The notes under the pieces are model-generated. The model saw nothing but the letters and a program-made list of their open reading frames with translations. It was not told the DNA's origin and ran no database searches. The position numbers and the translations under genes are program-made. Positions 4,534 through 30,722 of a stretch of DNA of 44,617 nucleotides are shown here, one piece after another. How positions within the stretch are numbered: the first letter of the stretch is position 1; every line of letters begins with the position of its first letter. The stretch comes from Thermoplasmata archaeon (GTDB taxonomy: Archaea; Thermoplasmatota; Thermoplasmata; Methanomassiliicoccales; Methanomethylophilaceae), in contig SUSW01000006.1 of assembly GCA_015063235.1 (NCBI GenBank), positions 1 through 44,617 of the forward strand, given 5' to 3'.

Positions 4534-7500
4534 TCATCTGTCCTGCAGCTCCTCTATCCTCTCCTCCAGATCCATGAAGAGATCCTTCAGCTTCTCGATC
4601 GTCTCCGGCTTGGCATCCCACATACCTCTGTCGTAGGCTTCCATAAGGCGGTTGATCATCTCCATCATCGCATGGGGGTTGTTCTCCTCCATCCACTTCC
4701 TGGTATCCGGGTCGAAGAGATACTTCTCCGCTAGGCCTTCATACATCCAATCGTCGGCGATATCGGAGGTCGCATCCCACCCGAACGTGAACTCAGTGAG
4801 CTTCGCCACCTCGGCGACGCCTCTGAAGCCGTGGTTCTTCAGTCCGGAGATGTATTTCGGATTCAGGGCCTTGCTTCTATAGACGAACTGCAGCTCCTGC
4901 TTGGAATCCCTGATCTTCACCTTGTCCGGATCGGAGCCGTCACCCATGAACGACATGGCATCCTTGTTGCCGTAGGCCTTCACGAATGCGTTGAGTCCCC
5001 CAAGATAGGAATAGAAGTCATCCACGTCGAGCACATCGATCTCACGGTCCGGCACGTTCTTCACCGTCACACCCACTTTGCCGAACCTCTTGACGAACTG
5101 CTCCTTCATCGCAACGCCTGACAGTCCCCTTCCGTACCCGTAGCTTCCCCATTCGATGTACAGATCGGCCAGGTCCTGAACGGATTTCCAGTCACTGTTC
5201 TCTATCGCGTGATTGACGCCTGCTCCGTACGCTCCGGGCGGACATCCGAATATGCGGACGGAGTTCTTCTTCCTGGCCTCGTCGACGGTCATCCCGTTGG
5301 CCATGGATTCGACTATGTCCCTGCGCAGATTCGCTGCCAGGTAGTTATCGTTCTCATCCTCGTCCAGTTCGGCCACCATCTTCACGGCATCGTCTATCAG
5401 ATCGATGAGATTGGGGAAGGCGTCCCTGAACAGTCCGGTGATGCGCACAGTGACGTCTATCCTGGGCCTTCCCAGCTCGGATATCGGGATGACCTCCAAT
5501 CCGTTCACCTGGCCGTTCCTGCCCCATACCGGCCTGACCCCCATCAGCCAAAGAATGTATGCGACATCGTCGCCGTTGGTCTTTATCGTGTCAGTGGCCC
5601 ATATGATGAATCCCACTTCCTTGGGATATATCCCTTTGTCCTCGATATAACGCTGGATCATCTGATCCGCCATCTTCTTTCCGATCTCCCAGGATGCCCT
5701 GGGAGGGACGATGTCCGGATCTATGCCATAGTAGTTCCTTCCCATCGGGAGGATATGGGCGTTCCCCCTCATGGGTGCCCCGGAGGGCCCCGGCAGCACA
5801 TAGCCGCCGTCGCATGCGTGCATCATGTTGTCCATCTCGTCGGTCATCTTCATGACGTTCTTGGACACCTCGTCGCATACGTATTCGATCGCCTCCCTCA
5901 GGTCTTCGGTCATATTCAATCCTTTGACCGAATCTGCATCATATCCCGATTCCCTAAGATGGGCCAGCAGCTCCATCAGTTGTCCGTCGGTCCTGTCGAT
6001 TATGACGCTATTCAGTTCACCGCCGGTCATCGAGGATGGATTCTCCAGCATGGAATCCAGATCGTATCCCAGCGATGCGTAGTATGCTCCTCTCAACGAA
6101 GGTACATCCCCGTTCCTCAGCCTGGTCAGACCGTAGATCGTCTCGTCCAGCAGTTCGCCTTCGGGCGCCCTTCCCAATATGTGAAGACCGTCCCTGATGA
6201 GCGCATCCTTGATCTCCATGATGTAATCGTGGACATCCTCCAGATGCTCCTCGAACCCTTCCGCCGTTATATCCTCCGGAAGGCTCAGGTCCTTCAGCAT
6301 ATCCTGTCTGCGTACCGCTTCAAGGACCTCTCCGATGACTGCCTCCTTCCTGTCACCGGACAATGAGGCTTTGAACTTGAAGTACTCCTGCAAAGGAGCG
6401 TCTATGGCCTCGATATCGTCATAGCTGCCGGCGCGGGTCATCGTCGGGCACATATGCCCTATGAGGACGGCCTCGGACCTGCGCTTGCACTGCACCCCCT
6501 CTCCGGGATCGTCGATGATGTACGGATACACGTTTGGTATCCCGTCCAGCACCAGGTCGGGGAAGCATTTGGATGATAGACCATGGCTCTTCCCAGGCAG
6601 CCATTCCACCGTGCCGTGGGTTCCGATATGGAACACCACATTAGTTTTGAAATCATTCTTGAGCCATCTGTAGAACTCGATATACTGATGCGGACACGGT
6701 ATGACCGGATCATGATACACGGCCTCCATCTGCTCCGCCCAGCCTCTCAGAGGCTGGAAGCCGATGTAGATGTTGCCGTTGACTATCCCTGGGATGACGA
6801 ACTTGCCGTTGTCCACGGAGATCTTCCCGGGGGGCTTGCCCCAGCTCTCCTCGATGGTCCTGCGGTTGAATTCCGACAGCTTCTCGTACTCCTTTAAGTA
6901 ACACGAATTGTCGATTAGTGCTACTGCCTTGTCCCTTATGCGCTGCGAGGACGACCACTCCAGATCGTTGGTGATGTTGTCTATTATCTCTTTCACCAGC
7001 TCGGTGCCGTTCTCGGGGACGTGGTCCAATGTGTAACCTTCCTTGGCGAACCTCTTCAGCATGTCGCATACGCTCTCGATCGAATCCAATCCTGCGGCTC
7101 CGCCTATGCGGCCCGTATCCGGACGCGACTGATACATCAGGATGGCAATCTTCCTCTCCGAACGGGGTATGCTGGATATGACGGCCCAGTTCTTTATCAT
7201 CCTGCACAGATGGTCGATACGGTCATCCAGCGGGGTGTATTTCTTCATCTTCTTCCCGCCTTCACCGCTCGCTATCGGCACGGTGATTATCTGTCCGTCC
7301 AGCTCGGGCCAGATTACGCCCATGTTGAACTCGGATTTGCTCAGACCCTCTGCAGTCTCCTCGTAATCCGCATAATGGCCAGAGACCTGCATGACCTGCA
7401 TGACGGGAACGTCGGTCATGGTATGGAAGAAGTTCTGTTCATCCGGTGTATATATGCCGTAGCAGTCCCTTGAATTGTTTATCTGTGAGAACGAGGAGCA

Positions 7501-8262
7501 CATCGCAATAGCGTTAACTCTGCATTTGTCCCCGTCCATGAAGTATTTCTGAACAATCGCAGCGGTACCTGACTTACCGTCCATATTGTGGACCAGAGCG
7601 CTGAAGAACACTGGGATGACGTTCATCTCCAGCTCCTCCATCTTTCTGATCAGGCTGATGATGTGCATCTGATTGTCGTAGATCCATAGATTGGCAGTAT
7701 ACAATATCCCTATGGTCGGTCTTCCCGGGATCAGATGATCTAGGTATTCCTCCAATGTGATATCCCTGCTGAAATCGGGATGGAATATCCCGCTCTCCCT
7801 GGATGTCACGGGCTCCGGCACGCTGCCCTCCCCCGTCAGCTTATGGTTGAGCCAATGGAGGATCGAGACGTCGTTCTCCCTGTCGCGGTTGATGAGATAC
7901 GTCCTGAGAAGCAGGAATTCCTCATCGGTCCCTTTGAAATAATCCCTGTAGAGCAGGCCGACATCGGCGCTGGGAAGATGGATCATCACATATCCCTTGC
8001 ATTCCCTCAGCACCTCCTCGTACCTTTCGAACCTCTTCATCCTGGTAGGGTCGGCCATGCATCTTATGATGATGAGATCGGCCTCTTTGGACCTCAGGAC
8101 CAGTTCGTGATAAATCAGCGGATCGTCGTCCACCGCTTCGCCGTTGACATGGAACAGATCGACTGGATTCCCGGTTCTCTCCTGATACAGGTCGGTACCT
8201 GTCCTGAACGTGCTGGAATCCGAGCTCTGGATGGAGATGTAGACGACCTTGAGGGGAGTCAT
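4534..8262 (-). CDS. cobN: CobN/BchH-family metal chelatase large subunit
   Basis: CobN-type proteins are the tetrapyrrole-binding subunit of ATP-dependent chelatases: cobalt into hydrogenobyrinic acid diamide (CobN) or magnesium into protoporphyrin (BchH/ChlH). At 1242 residues the length is full. The diagnostic core HIGTHGTVEWLPGK is near residue 547, followed by a region that includes VYPYIIDDPGEG, and C-terminal segments such as IFGCPPGAYG and WATDTIKTNGDD are also present. The protein is cytoplasmic with no signal peptide. The AAA+ partner subunits (CobS/CobT or ChlI/ChlD) are not in this window. Cobamide synthesis for MtaC is the simplest role, but a chelatase for another tetrapyrrole cannot be excluded given the nitrogenase-like genes 10 kb away. 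The ATG at 8262 was chosen because homology begins there. Confidence 0.9.
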   Translation of the reverse strand: MTPLKVVYISIQSSDSSTFRTGTDLYQERTGNPVDLFHVNGEAVDDDPLIYHELVLRSKEADLIIIRCMADPTRMKRFERYEEVLRECKGYVMIHLPSADVGLLYRDYFKGTDEEFLLLRTYLINRDRENDVSILHWLNHKLTGEGSVPEPVTSRESGIFHPDFSRDITLEEYLDHLIPGRPTIGILYTANLWIYDNQMHIISLIRKMEELEMNVIPVFFSALVHNMDGKSGTAAIVQKYFMDGDKCRVNAIAMCSSFSQINNSRDCYGIYTPDEQNFFHTMTDVPVMQVMQVSGHYADYEETAEGLSKSEFNMGVIWPELDGQIITVPIASGEGGKKMKKYTPLDDRIDHLCRMIKNWAVISSIPRSERKIAILMYQSRPDTGRIGGAAGLDSIESVCDMLKRFAKEGYTLDHVPENGTELVKEIIDNITNDLEWSSSQRIRDKAVALIDNSCYLKEYEKLSEFNRRTIEESWGKPPGKISVDNGKFVIPGIVNGNIYIGFQPLRGWAEQMEAVYHDPVIPCPHQYIEFYRWLKNDFKTNVVFHIGTHGTVEWLPGKSHGLSSKCFPDLVLDGIPNVYPYIIDDPGEGVQCKRRSEAVLIGHMCPTMTRAGSYDDIEAIDAPLQEYFKFKASLSGDRKEAVIGEVLEAVRRQDMLKDLSLPEDITAEGFEEHLEDVHDYIMEIKDALIRDGLHILGRAPEGELLDETIYGLTRLRNGDVPSLRGAYYASLGYDLDSMLENPSSMTGGELNSVIIDRTDGQLMELLAHLRESGYDADSVKGLNMTEDLREAIEYVCDEVSKNVMKMTDEMDNMMHACDGGYVLPGPSGAPMRGNAHILPMGRNYYGIDPDIVPPRASWEIGKKMADQMIQRYIEDKGIYPKEVGFIIWATDTIKTNGDDVAYILWLMGVRPVWGRNGQVNGLEVIPISELGRPRIDVTVRITGLFRDAFPNLIDLIDDAVKMVAELDEDENDNYLAANLRRDIVESMANGMTVDEARKKNSVRIFGCPPGAYGAGVNHAIENSDWKSVQDLADLYIEWGSYGYGRGLSGVAMKEQFVKRFGKVGVTVKNVPDREIDVLDVDDFYSYLGGLNAFVKAYGNKDAMSFMGDGSDPDKVKIRDSKQELQFVYRSKALNPKYISGLKNHGFRGVAEVAKLTEFTFGWDATSDIADDWMYEGLAEKYLFDPDTRKWMEENNPHAMMEMINRLMEAYDRGMWDAKPETIEKLKDLFMDLEERIEELQDR

Positions 8263-8332: not shown

Positions 8333-8333
8333 G

Positions 8334-8343
8334 TTTTATATAA
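8334..8343 (+). promoter_or_regulatory. TATA box of the MNT gene
   Basis: TTTTATATAA ends 21 bases before the ATG at 8365, the spacing expected for a leaderless archaeal transcript. Confidence 0.5.
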
Positions 8344-8364
8344 CAAACTGCCGATAATAATACT

Positions 8365-9659: not shown

Positions 9660-9716
9660 GCTAGTACGAAGTATTTGAGCGTATTAATACAGGCCAGTTT
9701 CTGAATCGAAAGCGGT

Positions 9717-10790: not shown

Positions 10791-10794
10791 CTTA

Positions 10795-11856: not shown

Positions 11857-11879
11857 CTTTTCGCCCACTCATTATAAAT

Positions 11880-11895
11880 GCCGGGTTTCCCCGGC
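11880..11895 (-). terminator. GNRA-capped hairpin between binding protein and permease genes
   Basis: On the minus strand the RNA would read GCCGGG-GAAA-CCCGGC, a perfect 6-bp stem with a GNRA tetraloop, placed 10 bases after the binding-protein stop and about 24 before the permease ATG. The downstream sequence is only moderately U-rich, so it may be a partial terminator or an mRNA-stabilising hairpin that keeps binding protein more abundant than permease. Confidence 0.6.
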
Positions 11896-11904
11896 TAAAA
11901 AATT

Positions 11905-13998
11905 TCAGGCCATTGCTGCCTTCATCGCATCTTCCATAGCCTGGATGAAAACTGTCAATTCACCGGTGAAGTATGCAAGTACCTCTTCCTTAGACTTGTC
12001 GTAAAGACTCTCATCGAAGCTATAGTAACTGAAGTATGAAGGCGCGTTGTTATACAGGACCAGATTCTTGTAATACGCTGTCATGTAGACAGTAGATCCT
12101 GAATAATCCTTACCATCGGTATGAGATCCTGAGTATCTGATGCAGAAATCGTTGTCCTCTGTTGATCCGATTATTTCAGAAGCGTCGAAATCATAACTGG
12201 ACTTTGGTTTAACCTTCTCTGAATATGCATCAAAAGCAGCTTTTGCATCCTCTACCGTGTCATAATACTCGAAATACAGATCGTATGACTTGTCCGTGTG
12301 GTTATAATACTCATTCACGAAGTGAATTGCTCCCGGTTTCTCAACGTTAGCTACGCCATTCTGCATGTACACCTTGCCGTTGTAAGACTTTACAAGCTCG
12401 TCTGCAACCTTGTTCAATGCTTCGAGAATAGAGTTCTCGATGTACTGGGCGTTGACATTGTTGATTACAGCAAACTTTCCCTTGTCGATGGAACTTCCGG
12501 AAACAATGAGTGTCTTAGAATCCGAATGAACTCTCTCTTTGATGTTCAGCGTAGTTCCGTATGCGAACTTCTCTCCGCTTTCTACCTCTCTTCCGCTCAT
12601 ATCAGTGACAAGAACGTCATCGGAAATGGTCACGGTGTACTCATAAGATGTAAGTGCGAGAGTCTTGTTTGCTTTCGATATGTCTGCGTCATAGTACGCC
12701 TCGAACGCGGTCAGGATTGATTTTGCCCAATCTTCGGAAAGTTCAGGGGCGACATCATTGTAAATCGCATAAGCTGTGTAAGCTACTCTGGCAGGAACAG
12801 GGATCACCCCACTGATAAGGACCTGGCCGTCATAGACGTGTTCCCAAAGGCTCATTGCGTTTGCATACTCTGCCCAATAATCTGCTACCTGCGCAGGTGT
12901 AGAGCTGTAGGAAAGTGCAGTCCTGAGGTGTACGATGTTATCAATCTTGTACTGACGTGTATCGAAAATTGCAAGATTATCTGGTTCGATATAGATTGAG
13001 GCAGATCCTCCGAAATCATATCCTTCGAGTGCAAACTTTGCACCGGCAGCCTCAACGACGGCAGTATAATCTGAATCTCCGGAAGAAACTGATCCGGTCA
13101 TTGATGAGGCGACAGCATTCCTGATGTTTTCCTTATCGAGTGCGGAAACCGCCTCGGTAATTTCCTCTTTGGTCTGATCATATATCTCTAAGATTGTGTT
13201 AGCCTGATCCTCGACATCGAATATAAGTCCCATGAGCATCAGACTGTGTGTGTATACTTCCTTGTCGAAGGAAGCGGTAGCGATCCTGACAACATCCACA
13301 CCGACACTCTCATAAGTCTGCCAGTTCTCAATATACGACCTGTTCCAATCGGTTACAAGACAGGTAATATTCTTTTCCTTGATTACCTGAGCAGACCCTT
13401 GCTCGTCATCCTCATAAGGAATCGATGTTGCAGAATTTCCGCCCACTTTCTTAACAAGATCGGTATTCAGATATGTCTTTCCGTAAAGGGTTTTATCATT
13501 GGTAGATCCGTATGCTGCTGCTTTTACAACGTCTCCTGCCTTAATGTCCAACAGGTCGAAGTACATAAGTGAGTTAGCAGACGCAGTCATCATAGCTGAG
13601 GTAACTGGCACGACAGTTGAATCAAGGACCTTATCCATTGTCCCGTTTCCGTCCTTGTCGTAATAGTTAACATGCCAAATTGTCTCTTTGTTTCCTTTGA
13701 TGACATTATCGATAACAGCCAGATCCTTATCATCTAAAGCTCCATCGTTGTTCGCATCGGCCAACTTGTTGTCCTTGACCGATTTTCCGTCATCTATCAA
13801 TTTTTTAACAGCGTCATAGTCAGCCTTATCGAGATCATTGTCTTTATCGACATTTCCCAATACTTTGAGGCCGACACCATCGAAATATGCCAAAGGATCT
13901 TCGCTGCTCTTATCCTGATTCATGATCATGAAGGCAGCGACACCTGCAATGGCAACAACTGCAACAACTGCGATTGCAGCAATCATCTTGTTATCCAT
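11905..13998 (-). CDS. ABC importer substrate-binding protein with dockerin-like calcium repeats
   Basis: The 697-residue protein starts with an uncleaved-looking membrane anchor (residues 4-26) and no lipobox cysteine. Two EF-hand-like dockerin loops follow, DKDNDLDKAD at 51-60 and DANNDGALDDKD at 81-92, with a third Asp-rich loop DKDGNGTMD at 114-122. A FecB/BtuF-type binding domain spans roughly 125-450 (VTSAMMTASANSLMYFD, then a long linking helix). The last 240 residues form an extension rich in Tyr, Asp and Ser that I cannot place; they are open and well conserved in style with the rest, so not an artefact. It is exported and membrane-anchored. It sits between ATPase and permease genes of the same importer. 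FecB-family proteins are usually about 300-380 residues, so this one is about twice the normal size. Confidence 0.85.
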   Translation of the reverse strand: MDNKMIAAIAVVAVVAIAGVAAFMIMNQDKSSEDPLAYFDGVGLKVLGNVDKDNDLDKADYDAVKKLIDDGKSVKDNKLADANNDGALDDKDLAVIDNVIKGNKETIWHVNYYDKDGNGTMDKVLDSTVVPVTSAMMTASANSLMYFDLLDIKAGDVVKAAAYGSTNDKTLYGKTYLNTDLVKKVGGNSATSIPYEDDEQGSAQVIKEKNITCLVTDWNRSYIENWQTYESVGVDVVRIATASFDKEVYTHSLMLMGLIFDVEDQANTILEIYDQTKEEITEAVSALDKENIRNAVASSMTGSVSSGDSDYTAVVEAAGAKFALEGYDFGGSASIYIEPDNLAIFDTRQYKIDNIVHLRTALSYSSTPAQVADYWAEYANAMSLWEHVYDGQVLISGVIPVPARVAYTAYAIYNDVAPELSEDWAKSILTAFEAYYDADISKANKTLALTSYEYTVTISDDVLVTDMSGREVESGEKFAYGTTLNIKERVHSDSKTLIVSGSSIDKGKFAVINNVNAQYIENSILEALNKVADELVKSYNGKVYMQNGVANVEKPGAIHFVNEYYNHTDKSYDLYFEYYDTVEDAKAAFDAYSEKVKPKSSYDFDASEIIGSTEDNDFCIRYSGSHTDGKDYSGSTVYMTAYYKNLVLYNNAPSYFSYYSFDESLYDKSKEEVLAYFTGELTVFIQAMEDAMKAAMA

Positions 13999-14008
13999 AA
14001 TATCGCCT

Positions 14009-14041
14009 CTTCCCTATAAGGAAGATATTGGACGTATCTTC
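14009..14041. promoter_or_regulatory. Two overlapping inverted repeats before the binding-protein gene
   Basis: CTTCC-CTATAA-GGAAG (14009-14024) overlaps a perfect 7-bp repeat GAAGATA-N7-TATCTTC (14021-14041), 11-43 bases before the ATG at 13998. An AT-rich TATA-like stretch (14050-14065) lies just upstream. The position suits a repressor site for the importer; the central CTATA resembles palindromes before other transport genes in the window. Confidence 0.45.
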
Positions 14042-14113
14042 CATTTTGTATTTATTATTATACAATTGACAACAGAAAAATTCGTACAGAATTATAGTCG
14101 AATCAATTAATTA

Positions 14114-14965
14114 TCAATTCGAACAATCCATTACAGAATCGTCATCTGGCACTCTAGAAATTAATTCTCCCGATACCGTCTTTTCGACCTTTGGTTCTTT
14201 GATTGAATCCTTAAGAATTACATGCGGTGAACCATCATCGTCGATTACCTTGCAAACGACATTGTACACCGTTCTGAGATTCTCCTCGGTTATAACTTCC
14301 TTAGGAGTTCCAACGTCAAAGATCGTGCCTTCATGCATCAATATGATCTCATCCGAGTACTTCGCGGCGATATTGATGTCATGGCAGATCATGATTACAA
14401 GGATCTGTTTCTGAACAGAAAGATCCTTCAGAAGCTTTGCCACATCTATCTGATGACGAACATCGAGATTGGATGTAGGCTCATCGAGCAAAAGAATCTG
14501 CGGCTGCTGGGCCAAGCCTCTGGCAAGCATGACTTTCTGGTGCTGACCGGCAGACAGCTCATTGAATGGACGCATGGCCAGATCCTGAATCTCCAGCAAC
14601 TCCAGTGTGTCATATACGATGTCGAGATCCTCATCCAGAGAGCCTCTGTGGCTGTGGGGATGCCTCCCCATGAGCACTGTATCGACGACAGTGAGCGGGA
14701 ATGTATCGTTGGAAGAATAGGGGACATACCCTACGATCTTGGACATCTCCTTGATCGTGATTTCCTTGACGTCTTTGCCGTCAATCATCACTACACCCTG
14801 TCTGGGCGAGAGAATCTTATTGATACAATGGATCAAGGTTGATTTTCCGACACCATTGGGCCCGAGAATCGATACGAACTTAGGACCTTCTATCTTCACA
14901 GTCACGTTCTTGAGTACCGATTCACTGGAATAGCCGAACTCGATGCCGTTGATATCTATGATCAT
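14114..14965 (-). CDS. FecE/BtuD-family importer ATPase
   Basis: The 283-residue ATPase powers the FecCD-type importer. Walker A GPNGVGKST is at residues 35-43, the Q-loop region reads GYVPYSSND, the signature is LSAGQHQKV and Walker B is ILLLDEPTSNLD, followed by the H-loop in MICHDINIA. The C-terminus extends about 30 residues beyond the core with no known motif. Longer in-frame starts exist up to 15079, but the ATG at 14965 begins the conserved domain and has a GGAG site 10 bases before it. The gene is first in the order ATPase, binding protein, permease, permease, unlike the usual order with the binding protein first. A 115-base gap with its own promoter-like sequence separates it from the binding-protein gene. 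Confidence 0.88.
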   Translation of the reverse strand: MIIDINGIEFGYSSESVLKNVTVKIEGPKFVSILGPNGVGKSTLIHCINKILSPRQGVVMIDGKDVKEITIKEMSKIVGYVPYSSNDTFPLTVVDTVLMGRHPHSHRGSLDEDLDIVYDTLELLEIQDLAMRPFNELSAGQHQKVMLARGLAQQPQILLLDEPTSNLDVRHQIDVAKLLKDLSVQKQILVIMICHDINIAAKYSDEIILMHEGTIFDVGTPKEVITEENLRTVYNVVCKVIDDDGSPHVILKDSIKEPKVEKTVSGELISRVPDDDSVMDCSN

Positions 14966-15132
14966 GCGTATGGCGCTCCGGATTGGTCCATACATCCATA
15001 TTCTCGTATTTGAAGACGCTTCTCTGTCAGAAGAACAATCCCTCAGTTCAGAATTCCCGTCAAGATACCACTCATACACTTTTTTTCCTCTACGAGTTCA
15101 TTATATTGATAATGGACAACGGATAATCATTA

Positions 15133-17721: not shown

Positions 17722-18497
17722 GCGAGACAGTGTACAAGAGGAACACCGGATTCTTCCACCAGGTGTATCACGTCGCTTGGTCGGACCTGATGTTCCTCAA
17801 ACACAATTTCATCAATACGGTGATCATGACAATCATGGGTCCGATACTGTATCTGATAGCGTTCGGATACGGACTCAGATCGGGGGAGACAGATATCGGC
17901 GTATCATACGTTGCCTTCGTCATCCCCGGTATAATGGCGCTGACATCTCTGTCGGGGTCGTTCGCATCCACATCCACAAGGATCAACGTCCAGAGGCTGT
18001 ACTACAAGAGCTTCGATGAGATGATGATGTGCCCCTTGAGCAACGGTGCCATCGTTTTGGGGAAGAGCATGCTAGGATTGGTAAGAGGGTTGATGGGATG
18101 CTTCCTGATGTACGCGATAGGGCTCGTCCTCGCACCTGAGCTGGAACTCACCCCGCTTGCGGTGATATCGATCGTCCTTAGCTGCATGGTATTCTCGATG
18201 CTGGGCATGCTGGCAGCTCTGCTCGCGAAATCGCACCAGAGCATGGCCACTTTCAACAGCCTGATCATCCTGCCGATGACCTTCCTGTGCGGTACGTTCT
18301 TCTCCGTATCCGACCTGGATCCAATCTTCCAGGGAATACTCTACTGCCTGCCTCTGACCCACTCAAGCCTTTGCGTAAGAGCAGCGTGCCTGCCTGGATA
18401 TCTCGACTTCCCATGGATATCGCTTCTCGTACTGTTCCTGTTCGGAGTTGTGGTGTTCCTGCTAAGCTATCACATGCTCAGAGTGAGGAAGATCTGA
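17718..18497 (+). CDS. ABC-2 type exporter permease
   Basis: A 259-residue membrane protein with about six hydrophobic segments, fitting the ABC2_membrane family (DrrB/NodJ-like). Typical parts are YVAFVIPGIMALTSLSGSF, the FDEMMMCPLSNGAIVLGK coupling region and a C-terminal LPLTHSSLCVRAACL segment. Its ATG overlaps the ATPase stop as ATGA. The gene is convergent with the NifK-like gene: TGA at 18495-18497 is directly followed by the other stop on the opposite strand, so no base separates the two genes and no terminator is seen between them. Confidence 0.87.
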   Translation: MSETVYKRNTGFFHQVYHVAWSDLMFLKHNFINTVIMTIMGPILYLIAFGYGLRSGETDIGVSYVAFVIPGIMALTSLSGSFASTSTRINVQRLYYKSFDEMMMCPLSNGAIVLGKSMLGLVRGLMGCFLMYAIGLVLAPELELTPLAVISIVLSCMVFSMLGMLAALLAKSHQSMATFNSLIILPMTFLCGTFFSVSDLDPIFQGILYCLPLTHSSLCVRAACLPGYLDFPWISLLVLFLFGVVVFLLSYHMLRVRKI

Positions 18498-19772
18498 TCA
18501 GCTTCCGCGGACACCGTGAAGTATCTCGTCAAGGATGTATCTGGTCCCCTGGATCCCGTAAATGGGACGGGGGATCACATCATCCAGGCCCATCGAGGAA
18601 TGTCCGATGGGTATGCCTATGCAGCATTCTCCGTTTATCTTCATGGTAAGCGCAGTTATCCCTTCGCACAGAACGATGTCCGACCCCTTCTTAGGCTCGA
18701 CACCGAATGATTCCGAATAATCGATGGAATCCAGGAATGCCTTCAGCTTCTCCACTTCCGTCTCATCGGATCCCAGATCCACATCCACTGCTATGGGTGC
18801 TGTGGCAAGATACTCGTACATCCACTTTGTCAGCGGCCTGATTACCGAGGCGATCCCCGCCGCGGAGAATTTCAGTCCCTTAATACGCAATGCGTTGTAC
18901 TTCATGCCGACGAACTTCTGATAGATCTTGTCACGGGCCTTTTGGACCTTCGAGATAGGGGCGGATGCATCCTTGCCGGTGATTGCTCCGATATTTCTGT
19001 ACCACTCCTCGGTTGCATCGAAACCAACGGGGGCTCCCGCTTCGGAGCGTATGATCTTCAGCCCTTTGGATTCGTAATAATCACATAAAGATGCGCATGC
19101 CTCCGGGCATACCACGATGCAGTATTCGGAATTGAGCGAGTCCTTGAGATCGTCAAGCTCCGCTCCGGCCCCGGGAACGCACCTCACCTTCAGGCCCATG
19201 GACTCCAGATTCTCCGTGAATTCTTCAACGGCCGCCATCCAATCCTTATCCAGGACTGTCATGCCCACGAGATTGACAGTATCCTTCTCGGGCCTGTCCC
19301 TGACCGGCTTCAGGTGCTCCACAATCTGCCTCAGGGTATGGTCGTATCCTTGGGTCATCGGTATGGAGACTAACGATTCATCCATGTAAATCGCCCTGTC
19401 TTCCATCCCTGCCTCGCGGATCGCCTTCTCGTGGTTATCCCCTATGAGCCCTGCTCCGGGCGAATTGATCACCACTACCAATCCGGGCTTCTTGGAATCG
19501 ACTATCGGGAGTCCTTCCTCCAGTTTGTAGAAGGCCCCATTTATGTAATCATACTCGTCAAGAAATGTTGCTGGCACTCTTGGATACCCGCAGAAATAGG
19601 GAACGAAATAGGAATCATTCTCTTCGAGCGTCATCCTAGGGAATACTGCACTGGAATAGACCATGAACCTGACCCTGCATCCTCCCGGACCGTGCAGGAA
19701 TACCATCGCATCGGTGATACTTTCGACGGCCATTACCGCGCCGACGAATCCATCCGGAAGCGTCCTCTTCAT
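18498..19772 (-). CDS. NifK/NifN-like subunit of a nitrogenase-like reductase
   Basis: This 424-residue protein belongs to the nitrogenase component 1 (NifD/K/E/N, BchN/B, CfbD) superfamily. Near the N-terminus are LHGPGGCRVR with Cys32 and YFCGYPRVPATF with Cys61, at positions expected for Fe-S cluster ligands. The third ligand position, TTC...IGDD in relatives, reads INSPGAGLIGD, so a Cys is replaced and only two of three usual ligands remain. Later regions show the Rossmann folds of the family (LVGMTVLDKDWMAAVEEF, YCIVVCPEACASL). The ATG at 19772 is preceded by AAAGGAGGG and overlaps the stop of the fusion gene as ATGA, which indicates tight co-translation and a 1:1 complex. Conserved NifD ligands of FeMo-co are not seen, so it is not a nitrogenase proper. 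Confidence 0.88.
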   Translation of the reverse strand: MKRTLPDGFVGAVMAVESITDAMVFLHGPGGCRVRFMVYSSAVFPRMTLEENDSYFVPYFCGYPRVPATFLDEYDYINGAFYKLEEGLPIVDSKKPGLVVVINSPGAGLIGDNHEKAIREAGMEDRAIYMDESLVSIPMTQGYDHTLRQIVEHLKPVRDRPEKDTVNLVGMTVLDKDWMAAVEEFTENLESMGLKVRCVPGAGAELDDLKDSLNSEYCIVVCPEACASLCDYYESKGLKIIRSEAGAPVGFDATEEWYRNIGAITGKDASAPISKVQKARDKIYQKFVGMKYNALRIKGLKFSAAGIASVIRPLTKWMYEYLATAPIAVDVDLGSDETEVEKLKAFLDSIDYSESFGVEPKKGSDIVLCEGITALTMKINGECCIGIPIGHSSMGLDDVIPRPIYGIQGTRYILDEILHGVRGS

Positions 19773-21919
19773 ATTATCCCTCCTTTCTTCCATCCTTCAT
19801 TGTTGGGAAGACGCATTATGTTCTCCAGATATTCCACATAATCCAGAGAGGGTTTCAGCCCCAGACCTATCTTGCCCACCCTTGCGAATCTGACGCCGTC
19901 CGTGGGCATCATAATATCCGATATTATCAGGTCCGGCCTGTTCTCACTGATATCCTTCTTAAGATTGTCCGAATCATAATCCTGCGTGATGAGGCCTATA
20001 TGGCGGGACACAGCTGCCAGCTGCTTCCTTCTGGGATTTGGCTGGCATGCTATCCTTACGAAATCCACCTTGAGGTCCAGCAACATGTCGATAAGCCAAT
20101 CTATGTTATACGACAGCTTGTTCAGCAGAATGACCTTCTTCCCTTCGAAGCGGTGGCGGTGAGCATCGATGAATGCTGCGTACTCAGATTCCACAGAACC
20201 GATCTCCTCTTCGGCCTCTTCTCTCTTCCCTGTGAGGTCCCCCATCCTGTCCAGCCATTCCTCATAATCGTAACGGCCCACCGGGAGAGGTACAGGGAAC
20301 AGCTCCCTTCCAGTCCTCTGATGTATCATATCGCAGAGCTCCCTATTGTTGGCGGTGTCCGTCAGTAGCATGTCATAGGTACCTTTGCAGAAGTTCTGTA
20401 TGGTGGACGACGTGGTCTCGTCTATGAATCTGCAGTTCACCTTGAGACCGAACCTATCCAGCATCCTCTCGAGCTCCTGCATATGCTTCTTCGAATGTAA
20501 ATCGAAGAAGGATGTGGCGATAAGATTGATTGAATTCGATTCCGGAACGACTGACGGGTCGATCATCTGGACGATGTTCGAGGCGGCCATCATGAAACCA
20601 TCGGTGTAATCGCCGACAACATCCCCGTCTGTGGGAACGTACTGAATGTCGACATCAGGATACTGCTTCATCTTCCTGTCGATGACGCTGACGCAGTCAT
20701 CGCCGATTATCCCGGGCATACATGTGGTGACCACGGCGATCCTGCTGAATCCGTCCGCGACCGTATCATCGATCGCTTTCTCCAGATACTTCACGCCTCC
20801 GAATATGGAGACGGCGTCGTCCATCATGGTGCATCTCACATTCTGAGCCGGGGCCACATCGAATATCTCTCTGTCGTACAGCTCCAATACGGCCTTGCTG
20901 CGGGATGTGTTCATGAAATACAGACAGCTTTCCGGACCGTGCAGCACCACGGCGAAATCGTTCATCTTCATGTAGGCCGCCAGTGCTCCGTATGCGGCAC
21001 ATGACATCATTATGCGCGTATCCTTGATGGATCTCTTAGCGCATCCTGTACATCCGCCGCACGGATGTCGCGTGACGCCTGAAGCTCCTCCGGGACGTAT
21101 CTCCCTTCCTGCGGCCAGATCCGATAGCTGATCGTCATCCAACGGGTGTGGGTAGACGCATTCCACCTTTCCCTCAGATACGTCGATGATGCGCTGCGCT
21201 ATCTCATCCACAGCCTTGGAGATGTCTGAATCGGGGTATAACTCCCTGACGGTGTGGCCCTTGCCTTCGGCATCCGCGAACAGCTTGTCGCGCGGCATCA
21301 CGGCGATTACCTCCGTACCTGTGGCAGCGGCGAATCTCCTTACCAGTTCCTCCTCTCCGACGACCCCGCGGGAGTTCAGGAGGATACCGATAAGACGCGG
21401 CGAGCCCGTATCGAAATTGGAAAGTCCTTTCATAATGTTGTTCGCAGCGTACATGGCCATGAACTCACCGGATGTTACGAGGATTATCCCGTCCGCGTAT
21501 TCGCCTCTGAGAGGAACGGCGAATCCTCCGCATACGACATCCCCCAGGACGTCGTAGACCTTGACATCCACATCCAGACCGTCCGCACCCAGCTTCTTCA
21601 GCGTATCGAAAGTCGTCAGGATTCCTCTTCCGGCACAGCCGATGCCGGGTTCCGGCCCTCCTGCCTCCGTGCATATCACGCCTTCGGTACCGGTCATGAT
21701 CACATCGTCAAGCTTCCTCTTGGCAATCGGGGTGTTCCTGACGTAGTCCAGAACGGTACTCTGGGCCTTGCCTCCCAGCAGAAGCCTAGTGGAATCGTGC
21801 TTGGGATCGCAGCCTATCTGCATCACCTTGAGACCTTTCTTGGCCAGCGCTACCGAGATGTTGGCGGCCATGGTGGATTTTCCGATGCCGCCCTTTCCGT
21901 ACATGGCTATCTGATACAT
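19769..21919 (-). CDS. NifH-NifD-like fusion protein of a nitrogenase-like reductase
   Basis: A single 716-residue chain joins a full NifH domain to a NifD-like domain. The NifH part (about 1-265) has the P-loop GKGGIGKST at 9-16, DPKHDSTRL, the cluster ligands Cys95 (GIGCAGRG) and Cys130 (GDVVCGGF), and an ASGE-like TSGEFMAMYAANNI helix. A linker at 265-300 contains CGGCTGC (Cys287, 290, 293). The NifD-like part follows, with Cys332 (HGPESCLYF), Cys363 (NVRCTMMDD) and Cys400 (TTCMPGIIGDD) in the places of cluster ligands. The ATG at 21919 starts the P-loop domain; a longer frame to 21991 exists. In the relatives I know (NifHDK, BchLNB, CfbCD) the reductase and catalytic parts are separate proteins. 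The substrate is unknown. Confidence 0.9.
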   Translation of the reverse strand: MYQIAMYGKGGIGKSTMAANISVALAKKGLKVMQIGCDPKHDSTRLLLGGKAQSTVLDYVRNTPIAKRKLDDVIMTGTEGVICTEAGGPEPGIGCAGRGILTTFDTLKKLGADGLDVDVKVYDVLGDVVCGGFAVPLRGEYADGIILVTSGEFMAMYAANNIMKGLSNFDTGSPRLIGILLNSRGVVGEEELVRRFAAATGTEVIAVMPRDKLFADAEGKGHTVRELYPDSDISKAVDEIAQRIIDVSEGKVECVYPHPLDDDQLSDLAAGREIRPGGASGVTRHPCGGCTGCAKRSIKDTRIMMSCAAYGALAAYMKMNDFAVVLHGPESCLYFMNTSRSKAVLELYDREIFDVAPAQNVRCTMMDDAVSIFGGVKYLEKAIDDTVADGFSRIAVVTTCMPGIIGDDCVSVIDRKMKQYPDVDIQYVPTDGDVVGDYTDGFMMAASNIVQMIDPSVVPESNSINLIATSFFDLHSKKHMQELERMLDRFGLKVNCRFIDETTSSTIQNFCKGTYDMLLTDTANNRELCDMIHQRTGRELFPVPLPVGRYDYEEWLDRMGDLTGKREEAEEEIGSVESEYAAFIDAHRHRFEGKKVILLNKLSYNIDWLIDMLLDLKVDFVRIACQPNPRRKQLAAVSRHIGLITQDYDSDNLKKDISENRPDLIISDIMMPTDGVRFARVGKIGLGLKPSLDYVEYLENIMRLPNNEGWKKGGII

Positions 21920-22073: not shown

Positions 22074-22796
22074 ATGGGAATCAACATCGGAATATGCGAA
22101 ATGGAAGCCAAGAACTCAATGTGCAAAGACCTCAGGTCCGAGATTATAAAGGTCCATGTCAGCGATCCGGCAGGATTCGAGGACATAGTCCAATACGAAG
22201 ATGTAGTGGACCTCGAGACAGCAAAGAAGAAGGTCGGCGACTGGGAATCATTCATCAAGAGAAACAGGATCAATCCCGAGACCGATGCCGTCTACATGAG
22301 CAAGGTGAAGAAAGACGAAGACATCGCACTCCTGGCACCTGTGTCCAAGAAGGTCTGCACCGGATGGATTATGATGGATGGTCTTTCCGATGACGTAAAG
22401 AAGAAAATCCTGGACAAAGCGAACGGTGATGACATCATATCCGGCTGGGACCAGCTCGAGTTCGACGAGATGAACGAACTCTGCTCCAAGTGCCCCCTGT
22501 CATGGGATAAAGGGCGCGGATGCATCGGTGCATTCGGACCAGACACCAGCAAGCTTCCGGAGATCGCAGCGAAGTACAGCTGTCCCATAACAGCTTCGGC
22601 ACCTGTCGCAGCCAAATCCCATAAGAAGTTCACTCCTGAAGATGCAGAGAACCTTCTGAAGGAGATCGAGATCCTGAAGACAGCCCTCCCCAAGGAAGGA
22701 AAGGTCTTCGTGAACCGCTACAAGGGCCCCGTCGAGAGGATGGAGGCAGTGGCCAAGATCTCGATAGCAGAAGGCTGCGGCTGGTACTTCTTCTGA
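22074..22796 (+). CDS. Cysteine-rich orphan protein divergent from the nitrogenase-like operon
   Basis: A 240-residue soluble protein I do not recognise. It contains several cysteines that could bind an Fe-S cluster or metal: Cys8 and Cys17, a KKVCTGW site, CSKCPLSWDKGRGC near the middle, KYSCPITA, and EGCGWYFF at the C-terminus. The ATG at 22074 follows a GAGGT site at good spacing. No membrane segment is seen. It shares the 154-base upstream region with the fusion gene, so it may be co-regulated. It is convergent with the flavoprotein gene, whose stop lies immediately adjacent. No function is assigned; a cluster donor or assembly role is only a guess from context. Confidence 0.6.
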   Translation: MGINIGICEMEAKNSMCKDLRSEIIKVHVSDPAGFEDIVQYEDVVDLETAKKKVGDWESFIKRNRINPETDAVYMSKVKKDEDIALLAPVSKKVCTGWIMMDGLSDDVKKKILDKANGDDIISGWDQLEFDEMNELCSKCPLSWDKGRGCIGAFGPDTSKLPEIAAKYSCPITASAPVAAKSHKKFTPEDAENLLKEIEILKTALPKEGKVFVNRYKGPVERMEAVAKISIAEGCGWYFF

Positions 22797-23378
22797 TCAG
22801 GCAAAACCATTCAGACGGAGAAGGAGCTGTGACATGTTCCTGACAAGGGCATGCACACCCTTCATCCCTTTCTTATCATCCTCGTACTGAGGGGAATTCA
22901 GAGCATGCACTATGGGCAGAGGATTCGAACCGCATACGTTCACACCGTTGCGGAGCAGGAAATCCACCACCTGGTTGTAGACCATCGAACCGCCGTCGTG
23001 GCCACAAACGGCTATCGCGCCGCCGACCTTTCCGTTGAGACCCAGATCGCCCTTTTCATACACAAGCTGGGCCCTTTCGAGGAATGTCTGAAGAACACTG
23101 GGGCACGCGTTGGAATAGGTGGGCGAGGCGATTAGGATGCCGTCTGCCTCCCTGAGCCTGTCCAGAATGTCATTGAGCCCGTCATCCTCGTCCATGCATC
23201 TTCCGTCACCGCGGATCTCGCATGTGAGACAGACGTTGCAGTTCACCAGAGTGTACTCATAGATGTTGATAATCTCCATCTCGATGCCTTCCTTCTCGAA
23301 CTGATCCTGCACCTCATTGAGTATGTTGCTGGTATTGCCGATAGGGCGGGGGCTTCCGTTGATGGCGATTATCTTCAT
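22797..23378 (-). CDS. Iron-sulfur flavoprotein / NAD(P)H-dependent FMN reductase family
   Basis: The 193-residue protein has the flavodoxin-like FMN-binding loop GSPRPIGNTS at residues 8-17 and a compact cysteine motif NCNVCLTCEIRGDGRC with Cys47, Cys50, Cys53 and Cys61, as in iron-sulfur flavoproteins (Isf). A second flavin-contact stretch reads SPTYSNACPSVLQTFLER. Isf proteins of methanogens reduce O2 or H2O2 with ferredoxin electrons; others of the family reduce quinones or metals. The gene is monocistronic or last of a minus-strand unit, with 127 bases before the HAD gene. Assignment to the family is firm; the exact electron donor is not known. Confidence 0.85.
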   Translation of the reverse strand: MKIIAINGSPRPIGNTSNILNEVQDQFEKEGIEMEIINIYEYTLVNCNVCLTCEIRGDGRCMDEDDGLNDILDRLREADGILIASPTYSNACPSVLQTFLERAQLVYEKGDLGLNGKVGGAIAVCGHDGGSMVYNQVVDFLLRNGVNVCGSNPLPIVHALNSPQYEDDKKGMKGVHALVRNMSQLLLRLNGFA

Positions 23379-27782: not shown

Positions 27783-28592
27783 TTACTGTTCTTGCTTCTT
27801 CAGACGTTTGGAGGAACCGTGCAGGAACACTGTGTTCTCGTTGGTCTTCTCATCAAAGACCAATTCCGCATCCACTCCGAACACCAAGTCCATGTTCTCC
27901 GGAGTCAATACCTCTTCAGGAGTGCCAAGGGCCATGATATCAAAGTTATGAATCATGAGAATACGGTCGCAGTATCTCGCAACCATTCCGAGATCGTGGG
28001 ACACTATTACCACTGTGAGTCCGTCCTCTTTAGAGAGGTCTCTTACAAGATCCAGAACATCGAACTGCGAATTAATGTCCAGATGTAGCGTGGGTTCATC
28101 CATCAGCAGGATCTTCGGAGTCTGTGCAAGAGCCCTTGCTATGATGACCCTCTGACGCTCCCCTCCGCTCATCGTGTTGATGTGTCTCTCCCCGAAGCCT
28201 GCCAGACCTACACGTTCCAGGGCACGATCGACGATCTCGTCGTCTGAGTGGGACATTCCCTCCATAAGGCCTTGGAAAGGTATTCTCCCCATCGAAACAA
28301 TGTCCCTTACCGTGAAGGAGAAATGGACCTCGTTGGTTTGAGGGACCACTGCCACCCTCTTAGCGATATCCCTCTTGGTGATGACCTCCAAATCCACCCC
28401 ATCCAGAAGGATGTGTCCTCCCTGCGGGGAGAGATTCTTGTTGAGATGCTTCAGCAGAGTAGTCTTTCCGCATCCGTTGGGACCTAATATGCCCAATATC
28501 TCGCCTTCCCTCACCTCCAGCGACAGATCCTTCAGCAGCGTATAATCGCGGTAGCCATAATCTACATTCCTGAGTTCCAGCGTCAACTCCAT
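27783..28592 (-). CDS. FecE/BtuD-family importer ATPase
   Basis: The 269-residue ATPase of the second importer. Walker A GPNGCGKTT is near residues 37-45, followed by VVPQTNEVHF (Q-loop), signature MSGGERQRVIIARALAQ, Walker B ILLMDEPTLHLD and H-loop VSHDLGMVA. The ATG at 28592 overlaps the permease end by 10 bases and is preceded by AAGGAGGTGG; an in-frame extension to 28730 exists but lies inside the permease gene. It is the last gene of the operon binding protein, permease, ATPase, and one of four genes in the window that end in TAA. Confidence 0.9.
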   Translation of the reverse strand: MELTLELRNVDYGYRDYTLLKDLSLEVREGEILGILGPNGCGKTTLLKHLNKNLSPQGGHILLDGVDLEVITKRDIAKRVAVVPQTNEVHFSFTVRDIVSMGRIPFQGLMEGMSHSDDEIVDRALERVGLAGFGERHINTMSGGERQRVIIARALAQTPKILLMDEPTLHLDINSQFDVLDLVRDLSKEDGLTVVIVSHDLGMVARYCDRILMIHNFDIMALGTPEEVLTPENMDLVFGVDAELVFDEKTNENTVFLHGSSKRLKKQEQ

Positions 28593-29614
28593 CCCACCTC
28601 CTTCTTCCTTCTGAGCAGCAGATAGATAAACAGCGGTGCTCCGACCAGTGCGGTCACGACACCTATCGGCAATGTTCCGTAGTAAGGTGCGATGATATGT
28701 GTGAAATAATCGCAAATCAGAATGAAACATGCTCCTGCGAACACGCTGAGGGGCATGATTACCCTGTTGTCCGGACCAAGGATGATCCTGAGGATGTGGG
28801 GTATGACCAGACCTATGAATCCGATCACTCCTACGAAAGATACCGCGGAAGCCACTATCACGGTTGTAAGGATCAGTATGAACTGCCTAGTTCTCTTGAC
28901 GTCTATACCGAGATCCATTGCGTGTGCATCCCCCAACATCATAACGTTGAGATTCTTTGCCTGCGTCACCAGCAGTATCGATGCGATGGTTATGAGAGGT
29001 GCTGCGAAGATGACCTCTCCCCAATCGGCATTTCCCAGATTTCCCATGGTCCAGAAAACGATCCCTTCCAGCTTCTCTCCTGCAATGAACGTCAGGAATG
29101 AGACCAGTGCCGCCAACAATGAGGATACCGCTACTCCCGACAGTATGAGGGTCTCCGGCCTCACCACGCCTCCCGAACGTGCCATCGCATAGACAAGGAA
29201 CATTGTCAGAAAACAGGTTGCGAATGCCAGCACCGGTGTGCATATAGCTGCGGGAATGAAAGATACCACGAACACTATGCTGATGGCTGCTCCGAGGGAT
29301 GCGCCGGATGAAAGACCCAGTATGTACGGTGAAGCCAAAGGATTCCTGAAAACCCCCTGCATCGCGGCGCCCGCCACCGCAAGCCCCCCTCCTACGAACA
29401 GTCCGATGACCACACGGGGCGCGTTGATCTCACGGACGATAATATTAGAGGACCATGTTCCGTTGCCCATCAGAGCGTCGATGACCTCTTGGAACGAGTA
29501 CGAGAGGTCCGCAGATACCCATGACAGATCGAGTAGGACACAGATTACAGTCAAGATGAGAATGAGAACCAGCGTGAGGACGACCTTCTTCTTGGACAAT
29601 ATCTTTCCACTCAT
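28583..29614 (-). CDS. FecCD/BtuC-family ABC permease
   Basis: A 343-residue permease with about nine membrane segments. Family marks are GAAMQGVFRNPLASPYILG, GVIGFIGLVIPHILRI near the ATPase contact, and GTLPIGVVTALVGAPLFIYLLL at the end. Only one permease is present, so it probably forms a homodimer as in BtuC, in contrast to the two-permease importer at 9.7-11.9 kb. The ATG at 29614 has AGAGGTGAG in front and is 4 bases from the binding-protein stop. Substrate class: cobalamin, haem or iron chelate. Confidence 0.9.
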   Translation of the reverse strand: MSGKILSKKKVVLTLVLILILTVICVLLDLSWVSADLSYSFQEVIDALMGNGTWSSNIIVREINAPRVVIGLFVGGGLAVAGAAMQGVFRNPLASPYILGLSSGASLGAAISIVFVVSFIPAAICTPVLAFATCFLTMFLVYAMARSGGVVRPETLILSGVAVSSLLAALVSFLTFIAGEKLEGIVFWTMGNLGNADWGEVIFAAPLITIASILLVTQAKNLNVMMLGDAHAMDLGIDVKRTRQFILILTTVIVASAVSFVGVIGFIGLVIPHILRIILGPDNRVIMPLSVFAGACFILICDYFTHIIAPYYGTLPIGVVTALVGAPLFIYLLLRRKKEVGWS

Positions 29615-29618
29615 CGTC

Positions 29619-30722
29619 TCACCTCTGCGGCCTCATGTAATAATATGCTACACACAGCAGAACCGCAGATGCGATTACGCTGGAGATCGCGTACATCGTT
29701 ATGTCACTGTCCGAAGTCCCTCCTGAAGGCATATCGCCGTCGAAATAATCAGGATACATGGAACCGGCCATGGCCCATACACCCTTGGCGCTCTCTATCG
29801 AGAAGTTATTCCATATGCCTTTGAGCCCCTTGACCGTGATATCATTGCCGACTTGGGTCCTCAGACTCTTCATCAGGTCCTCACTGTTAAAGACCTGGCT
29901 GTCAGCGAATATCATCGCATTCGGATGCTTGGAGACCAGATCCGTGAGATTTACCTCTATAGTGCTCTCGCTTTTCGAATCATCCTTGGTGATCACAATC
30001 CCGCCGGCTGCTTCTATCATCGCAGTCGTGATCGATTTCGTATTGCCGACCTTGAATACCCCTGAAGAATGAGTAACGTAGAACGCCTCGATCCTCTCAG
30101 GCTGCTCCTGCGAGAGGGTGACGTCTATCTTCTCCACAACGGCCCTCATCGTGGCTGCGTTGTGATCCACCTTTCCGTTGCAAACTATGGAGATCGTCTC
30201 TACGAAATCTATGATGTCTCCGTAAGTGCTCACATCTCCCCAGTACATTACATTCTTGAACCCTTCCTCCTTGAGGAAGCTGAGATTGCCTCTGTACGAG
30301 GGGGATACCACGGCGAAAATAACATCCTTCTCACGGTCGAAATGGCCTTCTCTCGTAGGTTCGGATGCCGTGATGATGTCCGTCCTCAGCTGTTCCTTCC
30401 CGGAATCGTAGATCGTACCGTTGGCTGCGATACGGCCTTCGTCCACATATTTCCTCAGATCGTCGAAGAGCGGATCCCCGTTGGTCTTCGAATATCTGTC
30501 ACAGACCAGGATCTTATCCAATGCGCCGACGCCTATCGCAGTCGCGGTGGTGCCGACGCCTATCGTGATTATCCTCTCCGCAGGACCGTCCAGCGTGAAT
30601 ATGGTGCCGTCGCCGTCCCTCACCAGAATGGATGCGTCGGAAGGATTTGCTGCCGCTACCGCCGTCAGAGAAGATGCTACCAGAAGCGATACGAGAATGA
30701 ACGCGGGTATTTTTGATCTCAT
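29619..30722 (-). CDS. FecB/BtuF-type substrate-binding protein, C-terminally anchored
   Basis: A 367-residue exported protein with a signal peptide (about residues 1-25, LVSLLVASSLTAVAAA), a binding domain with AERIITIGVGTTATAIGVGALDKIL and a long connecting helix, and a C-terminal membrane segment (YAISSVIASAVLLCVAYYYM) that anchors it after a short Gly/Ser stretch. The C-terminal anchor, rather than a lipid cysteine, is common in archaea. The ATG at 30722 follows AGGTG. It is the first gene of the importer operon and has the palindrome-like ACCTATAGGGAA at 30729-30740 just upstream, beside a TATA-like GGATATATGG. Size is normal for the family, in contrast to the doubled protein at 11.9 kb. 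Confidence 0.88.
   Translation of the reverse strand: MRSKIPAFILVSLLVASSLTAVAAANPSDASILVRDGDGTIFTLDGPAERIITIGVGTTATAIGVGALDKILVCDRYSKTNGDPLFDDLRKYVDEGRIAANGTIYDSGKEQLRTDIITASEPTREGHFDREKDVIFAVVSPSYRGNLSFLKEEGFKNVMYWGDVSTYGDIIDFVETISIVCNGKVDHNAATMRAVVEKIDVTLSQEQPERIEAFYVTHSSGVFKVGNTKSITTAMIEAAGGIVITKDDSKSESTIEVNLTDLVSKHPNAMIFADSQVFNSEDLMKSLRTQVGNDITVKGLKGIWNNFSIESAKGVWAMAGSMYPDYFDGDMPSGGTSDSDITMYAISSVIASAVLLCVAYYYMRPQR

Follow-up and report, generated by a model that had tools for sequence, protein, structure and literature searches.

The NifH–NifD/E fusion and its NifK-like partner

The stretch of DNA analyzed here, called the window, spans 44,617 nucleotides (44.6 kb) from a Methanomassiliicoccales archaeon whose genome is 87% complete in 54 contigs. 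At 19769..21919 on its minus strand, a single stop-free frame encodes a protein of 716 residues in which a NifH domain (PF00142, residues 3–270, 300.6 bits) is followed, after a linker that begins at about residue 271, by a component-1 domain of the NifD/E type (PF00148, residues 307–670, 181.3 bits). This profile search agrees with an earlier note on the same DNA, which had read the frame as a complete NifH domain followed by a NifD-like domain. The NifH part has a P-loop and two cluster cysteines, Cys95 and Cys130, that are invariant across 31 aligned fusions. A NifH-type P-loop ATPase with two cluster cysteines, together with PF00148 catalytic subunits, places the system in the nitrogenase superfamily. 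For the second domain the earlier note had listed Cys332, Cys363 and Cys400. The first and the last of these are invariant in the 31 fusions; Cys363 did not hold up, since only 12 of 32 aligned rows have a cysteine there, and the conserved cysteines of this domain are Cys307 (at least 90% conserved), Cys332 and Cys400.

The next gene (18498..19772, minus strand) encodes a NifK/N/BchB-like protein of 424 residues (PF00148, 141.9 bits), which the note had also recognized. The two genes overlap in an ATGA at 19772–19769, so that the start codon of the NifK-like gene lies inside the stop codon of the fusion. This start at 19772, and not the first ATG at 19793, is the most likely one because the motif AGGAGGG stands five bases ahead of it; the K frames of the close relatives L038 and L068 (loci carry L numbers here, genomes G numbers) start at the equivalent methionine. 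The source genome has this one fusion and, on contig 36, a separate CfbC-like NifH (C36:3962) and a CfbD-like gene (C36:6791).

Distribution of the fusion

A view of the fusion as isolated or newly seen finds no support: it is widespread, often present in several copies, and its layout was mentioned in 2012 in a passage of PMC3464626. Within the order, 108 of 120 sampled genomes match the fusion protein, many through NifH alone. By manual count among the matches listed, at least 66 of the 120, the source genome included, have a match that spans both domains, with 30–80% identity to the window protein. Three of the 66 (G084, G085 and G098) have such a match only with an in-frame stop, and G086 has seven, of which two contain a TAG in frame.

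A scan of 84,980 species genomes yielded 383 confirmed stretches, the best 80 of which were examined (L100–L179). Among the 65 loci L100–L164, H and D lie in one frame in 55 (287–512 bits against the D profile). Eight of the remaining ten hold part of the gene (L103, L105, L113, L118, L126, L151, L156 and L162), the contig ending there as far as is visible, and two, from two genomes, have frames that are interrupted inside the H and D domains or between them (L161, 8745–12276; L106, 8914–11254), by a frameshift, decay or a true split. The last 15 loci (L165–L179, 148–171 bits) are NifD/E-like or resemble methylthio-alkane reductase (Mar), and none of them is fused. Carriers of a fused copy outside Methanomassiliicoccales include Methanolobus, Methanococcoides, Methanomethylovorans and Methanosarcina and, among bacteria, one member each of Holophagaceae and Syntrophobacteraceae as well as Oscillospiraceae. 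In the class of the Methanococcoides locus, at least 21 of 199 genomes have fused copies, nine as one match and twelve as two matches in one frame of about 760–810 residues. In the phylum of the Syntrophobacteraceae locus, 3 of 297 genomes have the fusion (that genome, G169 and G210). The fusion is present in many gut and sediment methanogens and in a few bacteria.

The two domain profiles are separated by 13–109 residues (median 25) in 107 unique fused genes. An assembly artefact, which the earlier note had raised as a possible origin of the frame, was rejected on the basis of these genes and their linkers and of the both-domain matches across the order.

A further candidate relative, L207 (genome G374, sampled within the phylum to which the Syntrophobacteraceae locus belongs), was rejected and left out of the counts because its Mar-like pair is unfused and comes with a NifH of its own. 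At 6680–13381 this locus has two unfused Mar/Nfl-like D–K pairs and a separate NifH, adjoining binding-protein-dependent transporter genes.

Phylogenetic placement and cluster ligands

In trees, the H parts of the fusions form one clade (support 94/89), as do the D parts (98/100) and the K parts (100/100), and all three clades lie outside the CfbC/D, Nif/Vnf, Mar and Chl references. We assigned the reference labels from gene order and search scores; the MarD label of L167 comes from its match to PDB chain 9fmg_A, and the other two Mar labels from similarity. Relative to ChlN and ChlB the fusions are likewise a clade of their own, in trees that include one ChlN and one ChlB, both long-branched, only one BchL/X, itself long, and no BchXYZ. 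These placements support the proposal of the earlier note that this is a nitrogenase-like enzyme of a distinct group.

The residues that would hold the metal clusters were read from the alignments. Cysteines equivalent to C62, C88 and C154 (Cys307, Cys332 and Cys400 in the window) are present in 31/32, 32/32 and 32/32 fusion D rows, respectively. The equivalent of Cys275, found in all seven NifD, NifE and MarD rows and absent from ChlN and three CfbD rows, occurs in one of the 32 fusion rows, and the equivalent of His442 in none, so the fusions lack the ligands by which the nitrogenases (Nif, Vnf and Anf) hold the iron-molybdenum cofactor (FeMo-co). In K, a cysteine stands at the place of NifK C95 in all 57 rows, which include some genes twice, and in the window protein it lies in the motif HGPGGC; the other two P-cluster places are Asp in 51 and Pro in 50 of these rows. 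A single-sequence PDB search with the window K protein gave the BchB chain 3aet_B as its best match (E 2e-9), with HGPQGC aligned with HGPGGC; 3aet carries D36C, a mutation of the cluster ligand of DPOR. The P-cluster of nitrogenase and Mar, with three cysteines each from D and K, is thus represented in the fusions by three in D and one in K. The cysteine that anchors the [8Fe] cofactor of Mar is also missing, and the D parts lie outside the MarD clade. What the fusions do have is the three-plus-one [4Fe-4S] ligand set of DPOR and COR, with Cys instead of Asp as the fourth ligand.

Excerpts of PMC12552129 describe DPOR and CfbCD as containing only [4Fe-4S] clusters together with tetrapyrrole sites, and Mar as containing six-cysteine P-clusters, with three of the cysteines in MarK, and [8Fe-9S-C] clusters; our alignment lines up only two of the three MarK cysteines. 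Because the fusions have three cluster cysteines in D, one in K and no equivalents of Cys275 and His442, the D/K pair probably carries one [4Fe-4S] site and no FeMo-co or L-cluster, as in the tetrapyrrole-reducing relatives. The earlier note had pointed instead to the lack of nifB and molybdenum genes nearby, which has little weight, as nifB was not searched for genome-wide; the absence of the ligand residues argues more strongly. Here we took the ligand set as a better guide to the cluster than whole-profile similarity, and gene context as a better guide to the substrate.

Gene context of the fusion loci

Within Methanomassiliicoccales, we compared 40 fusion neighborhoods, namely the window and 39 stretches of 16–20 kb (L038–L076), with 20 control stretches, for which seven of these genomes were used. 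The 40 are not independent, because L051/L052 and L058/L059 overlap and several neighborhoods share one genome. Most neighbors were recognized only by similarity to about fifteen chosen proteins, and a missing neighbor is weaker evidence than a present one because flank lengths differ among loci. FecCD permeases occur in 25/40 fusion neighborhoods and 0/20 controls, presumed binding proteins in 13/40 and 0/20, ABC-2 permeases in 11/40 and 0/20, CobN in 8/40 and 0/20 (p 0.03), and importer-type ATPases in 27/40 and 5/20. The FMN reductase found near the window fusion shows no enrichment (5/40 against 3/20) and was rejected as a partner. In L055, the Methanomassiliicoccus record that is also L119, and in L056, genes for a binding protein, FecCD, an ATPase, CbiZ, ChlI-like and ChlD-like proteins, NifHD and NifK form one run, with CobN nearby.

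Nine loci of Methanosarcinia (L121, L134, L136, L137 and L212–L216) all have CbiZ (9/9), confirmed with Pfam in six and recognized by phmmer alone in L213, L214 and L215; FecCD is present in 7/9, CbiK in 6/9, and CobN and ChlI/D in 3/9 each; in L212 and L213 the open reading frames of the importer ATPase and NifHD overlap by 4 nt. No cobalamin riboswitch was found in the archaeal loci searched (the window, L119, L134 and L212–L215).

Three of eight bacterial loci do carry one. In a member of Holophagaceae (L143), CbiZ, a TonB receptor, TonB, NifHD and NifK follow a cobalamin riboswitch of 117 bits. In a member of Syntrophobacteraceae (L147), a riboswitch (89.8 bits) is followed by a TonB receptor, NifHD, NifK and a binding-protein gene, beyond which lies a fusion of a binding protein with CbiZ. 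The third, in another genome of the latter phylum (L205), is a partial model match of 70.8 bits. It shares the strand of NifHD, from which it is separated by about 3.7 kb that include a DUF4465 gene and a radical-SAM gene; the NifK gene after NifHD is truncated where the contig stops, and further out are more riboswitches, a gene of the CobT family and one for a binding protein. An excerpt of PMC13398666 gives DUF4465 as a B12-binding domain. No CbiD was found in the L205 genome. Linkage to corrinoids through a riboswitch or CbiZ/BtuFCD is thus seen in the nine Methanosarcinia loci, in L055/L056 and in three of eight bacterial loci, and not in the locus of the window.

Around the window fusion, the genes within about 20 kb include CobN, a corrinoid-protein gene, a RACo-type activator, a CobW GTPase and two FecCD importers. 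The CobN or Mg-chelatase H-type subunit (4534..8262, minus strand, 1242 aa) scores 889 bits against TIGR02257, above the cut-off; it lies about 10 kb from the fusion, and we infer a link between the two solely from the relatives. On the same strand are two FecCD-type permeases (9717–10790 and 10795–11868) and an importer ATPase of the ABC type (14114..15079), and between them a presumed substrate-binding protein (11905..13998), so named from clustering and a Peripla_BP_2 match of 24 bits, just under the cut-off of 27.5.

Proposed function

Taken together, the ligand residues and the gene context suggest a tethered, ATP-driven two-component reductase of the tetrapyrrole-reducing type whose substrate, where the context speaks, would be an imported corrinoid or its breakdown or analogue product; we assign this reading a probability of about 0.58. 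The enzyme is probably a reductase of a B12-like pigment rather than a nitrogen fixer. The suggestion of the earlier note that the substrate is perhaps a tetrapyrrole thus comes out as the likeliest one, given the absence of FeMo-co ligands and the corrinoid gene context in several lineages.

We envisage that the fusion and K assemble as an (HD)2K2 heterotetramer, in which the tethered NifH halves would pair, hydrolyze ATP and pass single electrons to the [4Fe-4S] cluster of D/K, and from there to a macrocycle bound at the D/K interface. The tether would raise the local concentration of the Fe protein and fix the ratio at one NifH half per D/K half. A corrinoid-type substrate would enter through a BtuB/BtuFCD-type importer and be handled together with CbiZ and metal chelatases. 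Two steps appear likeliest, and neither is preferred: reduction of the ring of an imported tetrapyrrole that is damaged or not of the standard kind, in the way that CfbCD and DPOR reduce rings, or a reduction of Co(II) to Co(I) after chelation by CobN/ChlID or CbiK, which would be an anaerobic counterpart of the flavin enzyme CobR. According to an excerpt of PMC7242693, cobalt is inserted by a CobN-type enzyme, CobR then reduces Co(II) to Co(I), and adenosylation comes after that. In Methanomassiliicoccales the fusion has expanded to several copies, often next to FecCD importers, which suggests that the paralogues serve different imported tetrapyrroles or chelates.

Several observations weigh against this proposal. 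The genes nearest to the window fusion encode an ABC-2 exporter, a 240-residue protein and the FMN reductase, with CobN well away; no CbiZ was found near the fusion and no cobalamin riboswitch in the window, and the two CbiZ matches of the source genome, on contig 39, lie apart from the neighbor types searched for. In the 40 Methanomassiliicoccales neighborhoods, CbiZ (3/40 against 0/20, p 0.29), BtuF (5/40 against 0/20, p 0.12) and ChlI (6/40 against 0/20, p 0.077) are not significantly enriched. Five of the eight bacterial loci (three of Oscillospiraceae, one Clostridia fragment and L206; that is, L157, L159, L162, L164 and L206) have no recognized riboswitch or CbiZ, and in L157 of Oscillospiraceae a PALP-family (cysteine-synthase-like) enzyme and an aminotransferase lie directly after NifK (12479–14669), which hints at another role. 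The eight loci with longer linkers, of the type of Methanosarcina L129 (L128, L129, L208–L211, L217 and L218), have no CbiZ, FecCD, CbiK or CobN; riboswitches were not searched for in them. CbiD was found in 13 of 14 fusion carriers tested, so salvage is not the only corrinoid route of these carriers. The D profile finds NifE and NifD chains as its best PDB matches, with MarD close behind, and is nearer to these than to BchN, and the K profile finds MarK and then BchB. FecCD importers, finally, also carry siderophores and heme.

In the best of the alternatives, the enzyme reduces FecCD-imported metal complexes (Fe(III)-chelates or heme) and thereby releases the metal. In Methanomassiliicoccales FecCD is enriched beside the fusion whereas the excess of CbiZ is not significant, the window itself lacks a nearby CbiZ or riboswitch, and many paralogues could mean many chelates. 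We nevertheless regard this alternative as unlikely, given the CbiZ, CobN, ChlI/D and CbiK neighbors in the Methanosarcinia and Methanomassiliicoccus-type loci and the cobalamin riboswitches in Holophagaceae, Syntrophobacteraceae and the third genome from the phylum of the latter; moreover, Fe(III) needs no ATP-driven low-potential reduction.

The profile matches of D and K would instead point to an enzyme similar to Mar or nitrogenase, which would act on a small substrate by means of a complex Fe-S cofactor. Clusters of the [8Fe-9S-C] type do occur in methanogens, as stated in the part of PMC12176620 that was available, and the PALP-family enzyme after NifK in Oscillospiraceae would fit such a role. 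This identity was rejected on the ligands, though whole-profile similarity points that way: the near-complete loss of Cys275 and His442 equivalents, and the presence in K of a single P-cluster cysteine, where the NifK rows and MarK (by the excerpt of PMC12552129) have three, make it improbable.

We consider even less probable that the fusion is a second reductase of the F430 pathway, related to CfbCD and acting, for example, on a modified F430. Its NifH half does score best against the CfbC model (321 bits, under the cut-off of 402), and methanogens dominate the distribution seen. On the other hand, the fusion is unlikely to be the F430 reductase of its own genome because separate CfbC-like and CfbD-like genes exist on contig 36. 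A CfbCD duplicate was rejected on these genes, the position of H and D outside the CfbC and CfbD clades and the presence of a K subunit, and some bacterial carriers have the fusion under cobalamin riboswitches. The view of the earlier note that the fusion is not CfbCD therefore stands. A non-catalytic, NifEN-like scaffold or maturase, for which the NifE-like D profile could be cited, is very improbable, as the fusion includes a fully conserved Fe-protein ATPase, has lost the cofactor anchor and has no catalytic NifDK partner to serve in the PF00148 search of the genome.

Amber codons at the NifH–NifD junction

Eight of the 107 unique fused genes have one internal stop each, and all eight are TAG, in a count that leaves out the last 25 residues of the match. 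In four of them the TAG lies exactly at the junction, at position 272–280 counted from where the H match begins (L101, L042, which is also L115, L264, and L022, which is also L153). In the other four fusion paralogues (L040, L047, L062 and L265) it lies elsewhere and may reflect pyrrolysine insertion or early decay; in L265 the K gene has a TAG as well. A TGA was seen outside the counting rule at position 697 of L076 and in one match in G098. For comparison, proteins of ten families from these loci, about 94,000 residues in all, show a single TAG and a single TAA, and in one gene two TGA. Apparent internal stops in the K genes (6/94; four TGA, one TAA and one TAG) are possibly in part due to alignment past the true end.

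For three of these four junction-TAG genes, the first possible start codon (ATG, GTG or TTG) after the TAG comes only past the first D cysteine; an intact D would therefore require the TAG to be read as sense. PylS scores above its cut-off in all ten genomes tested, the four junction-TAG genomes included. A simple explanation is that pyrrolysine is tolerated in the linker; a bolder, possible one is a regulated choice between a free and a tethered Fe protein.

Combining these elements, we tentatively outline a fuller version of the corrinoid proposal, which we hold with less confidence than the proposal itself. The fusion would act at a hitherto unrecognized corrinoid-acquisition step controlled by a cobalamin riboswitch, as a tethered ATP-driven corrinoid reductase that, with CbiZ and CobN/ChlID or CbiK, rescues or re-metallates imported corrinoids. 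It would have expanded in gut methanogens for several tetrapyrroles and, in some pyrrolysine-using species, would be subject to an amber-codon choice between free Fe protein and tethered enzyme.

Relation to known systems

DPOR (BchLNB/ChlLNB) and COR (BchXYZ) resemble the fusion system in having an Fe protein with a D/K-type heterodimer, no FeMo-co ligands, one cluster held by three alpha-subunit cysteines and one beta-subunit ligand, and a chelatase (H/I/D) in the pathway. They differ in that the fusion has its reductase joined to the alpha subunit, has a corrinoid and not a chlorophyll gene context and, in trees with few Chl references, forms separate clades; the beta ligand of DPOR is Asp, whereas the K of the fusion has Cys. 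CfbCD, the Ni-sirohydrochlorin a,c-diamide reductive cyclase, is likewise a tetrapyrrole reductase of methanogens without FeMo-co ligands, and its CfbC model is the best match of the fusion NifH. However, CfbD is the sole catalytic subunit and has two of the three D cysteines, and CfbC is a separate protein. MarHDK is, like the fusion system, a NifHDK homologue without nitrogen fixation, but Mar has six-cysteine P-clusters and [8Fe-9S-C] cofactors, whereas the fusion has four cluster cysteines and no Cys275. With CobR the fusion would share the proposed role of a reduction after CobN-type chelation; CobR, unlike the fusion, is a flavin enzyme.

The closest description that we found is that of Dos Santos et al. 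(2012; PMC3464626), who mention nifH fused to nifE and followed by a nifN-like gene in Archaea, Firmicutes and Deltaproteobacteria. This is exactly the gene order of the fusion. In the excerpts available the mention takes one sentence, with data not shown and the fused sequences filtered out of the tree, and they give no ligands, context or function. In the part available of PMC4153887, 'fused nifH/nifE' appears once, as a table entry. Among the titles and abstract openings listed from open-licence papers, none concerned the function or B12 linkage of a NifH–NifD/E fusion, which is weak evidence of novelty because only such papers were covered.

Docking and undocking of the Fe protein are central to electron gating, and a natural tether across archaea and bacteria offers a means to test the need for full dissociation. 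A corrinoid role, if true, would add a third tetrapyrrole branch to nitrogenase-like chemistry, after chlorophylls and F430, and might supply a missing reductive step in the B12 handling of methanogens, whose methyl transfer depends on corrinoids. It would also give a testable role to genes of the CobN/ChlI/ChlD type in organisms that have, in addition, the CbiD of the anaerobic corrin pathway.

Other genes of the window

Convergent with the NifK-like gene, on the plus strand, are an ABC ATPase (17002–17721) and an ABC-2 permease (17718–18497). On the other side, the 240-residue protein (22074..22796, plus strand) is divergent from the fusion, has a cysteine-rich stretch and no match in Pfam or NCBIfam. 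It is kept beside some close relatives of the fusion, without significant enrichment (4/40 against 0/20). The FMN reductase, an NADPH-dependent FMN reductase family protein, follows at 22797..23378 on the minus strand. At 778–4039, the corrinoid-protein gene with B12-binding domains, the RACo-type activator with a ferredoxin domain and the CobW GTPase are adjacent. The second importer (27783..30722, minus strand) consists of an ATPase (27783–28730), a FecCD permease (28583–29614) and a presumed binding protein (29619–30722), the role of which is guessed from its position, with no match in Pfam; this gene order is retained in L038 and L068.

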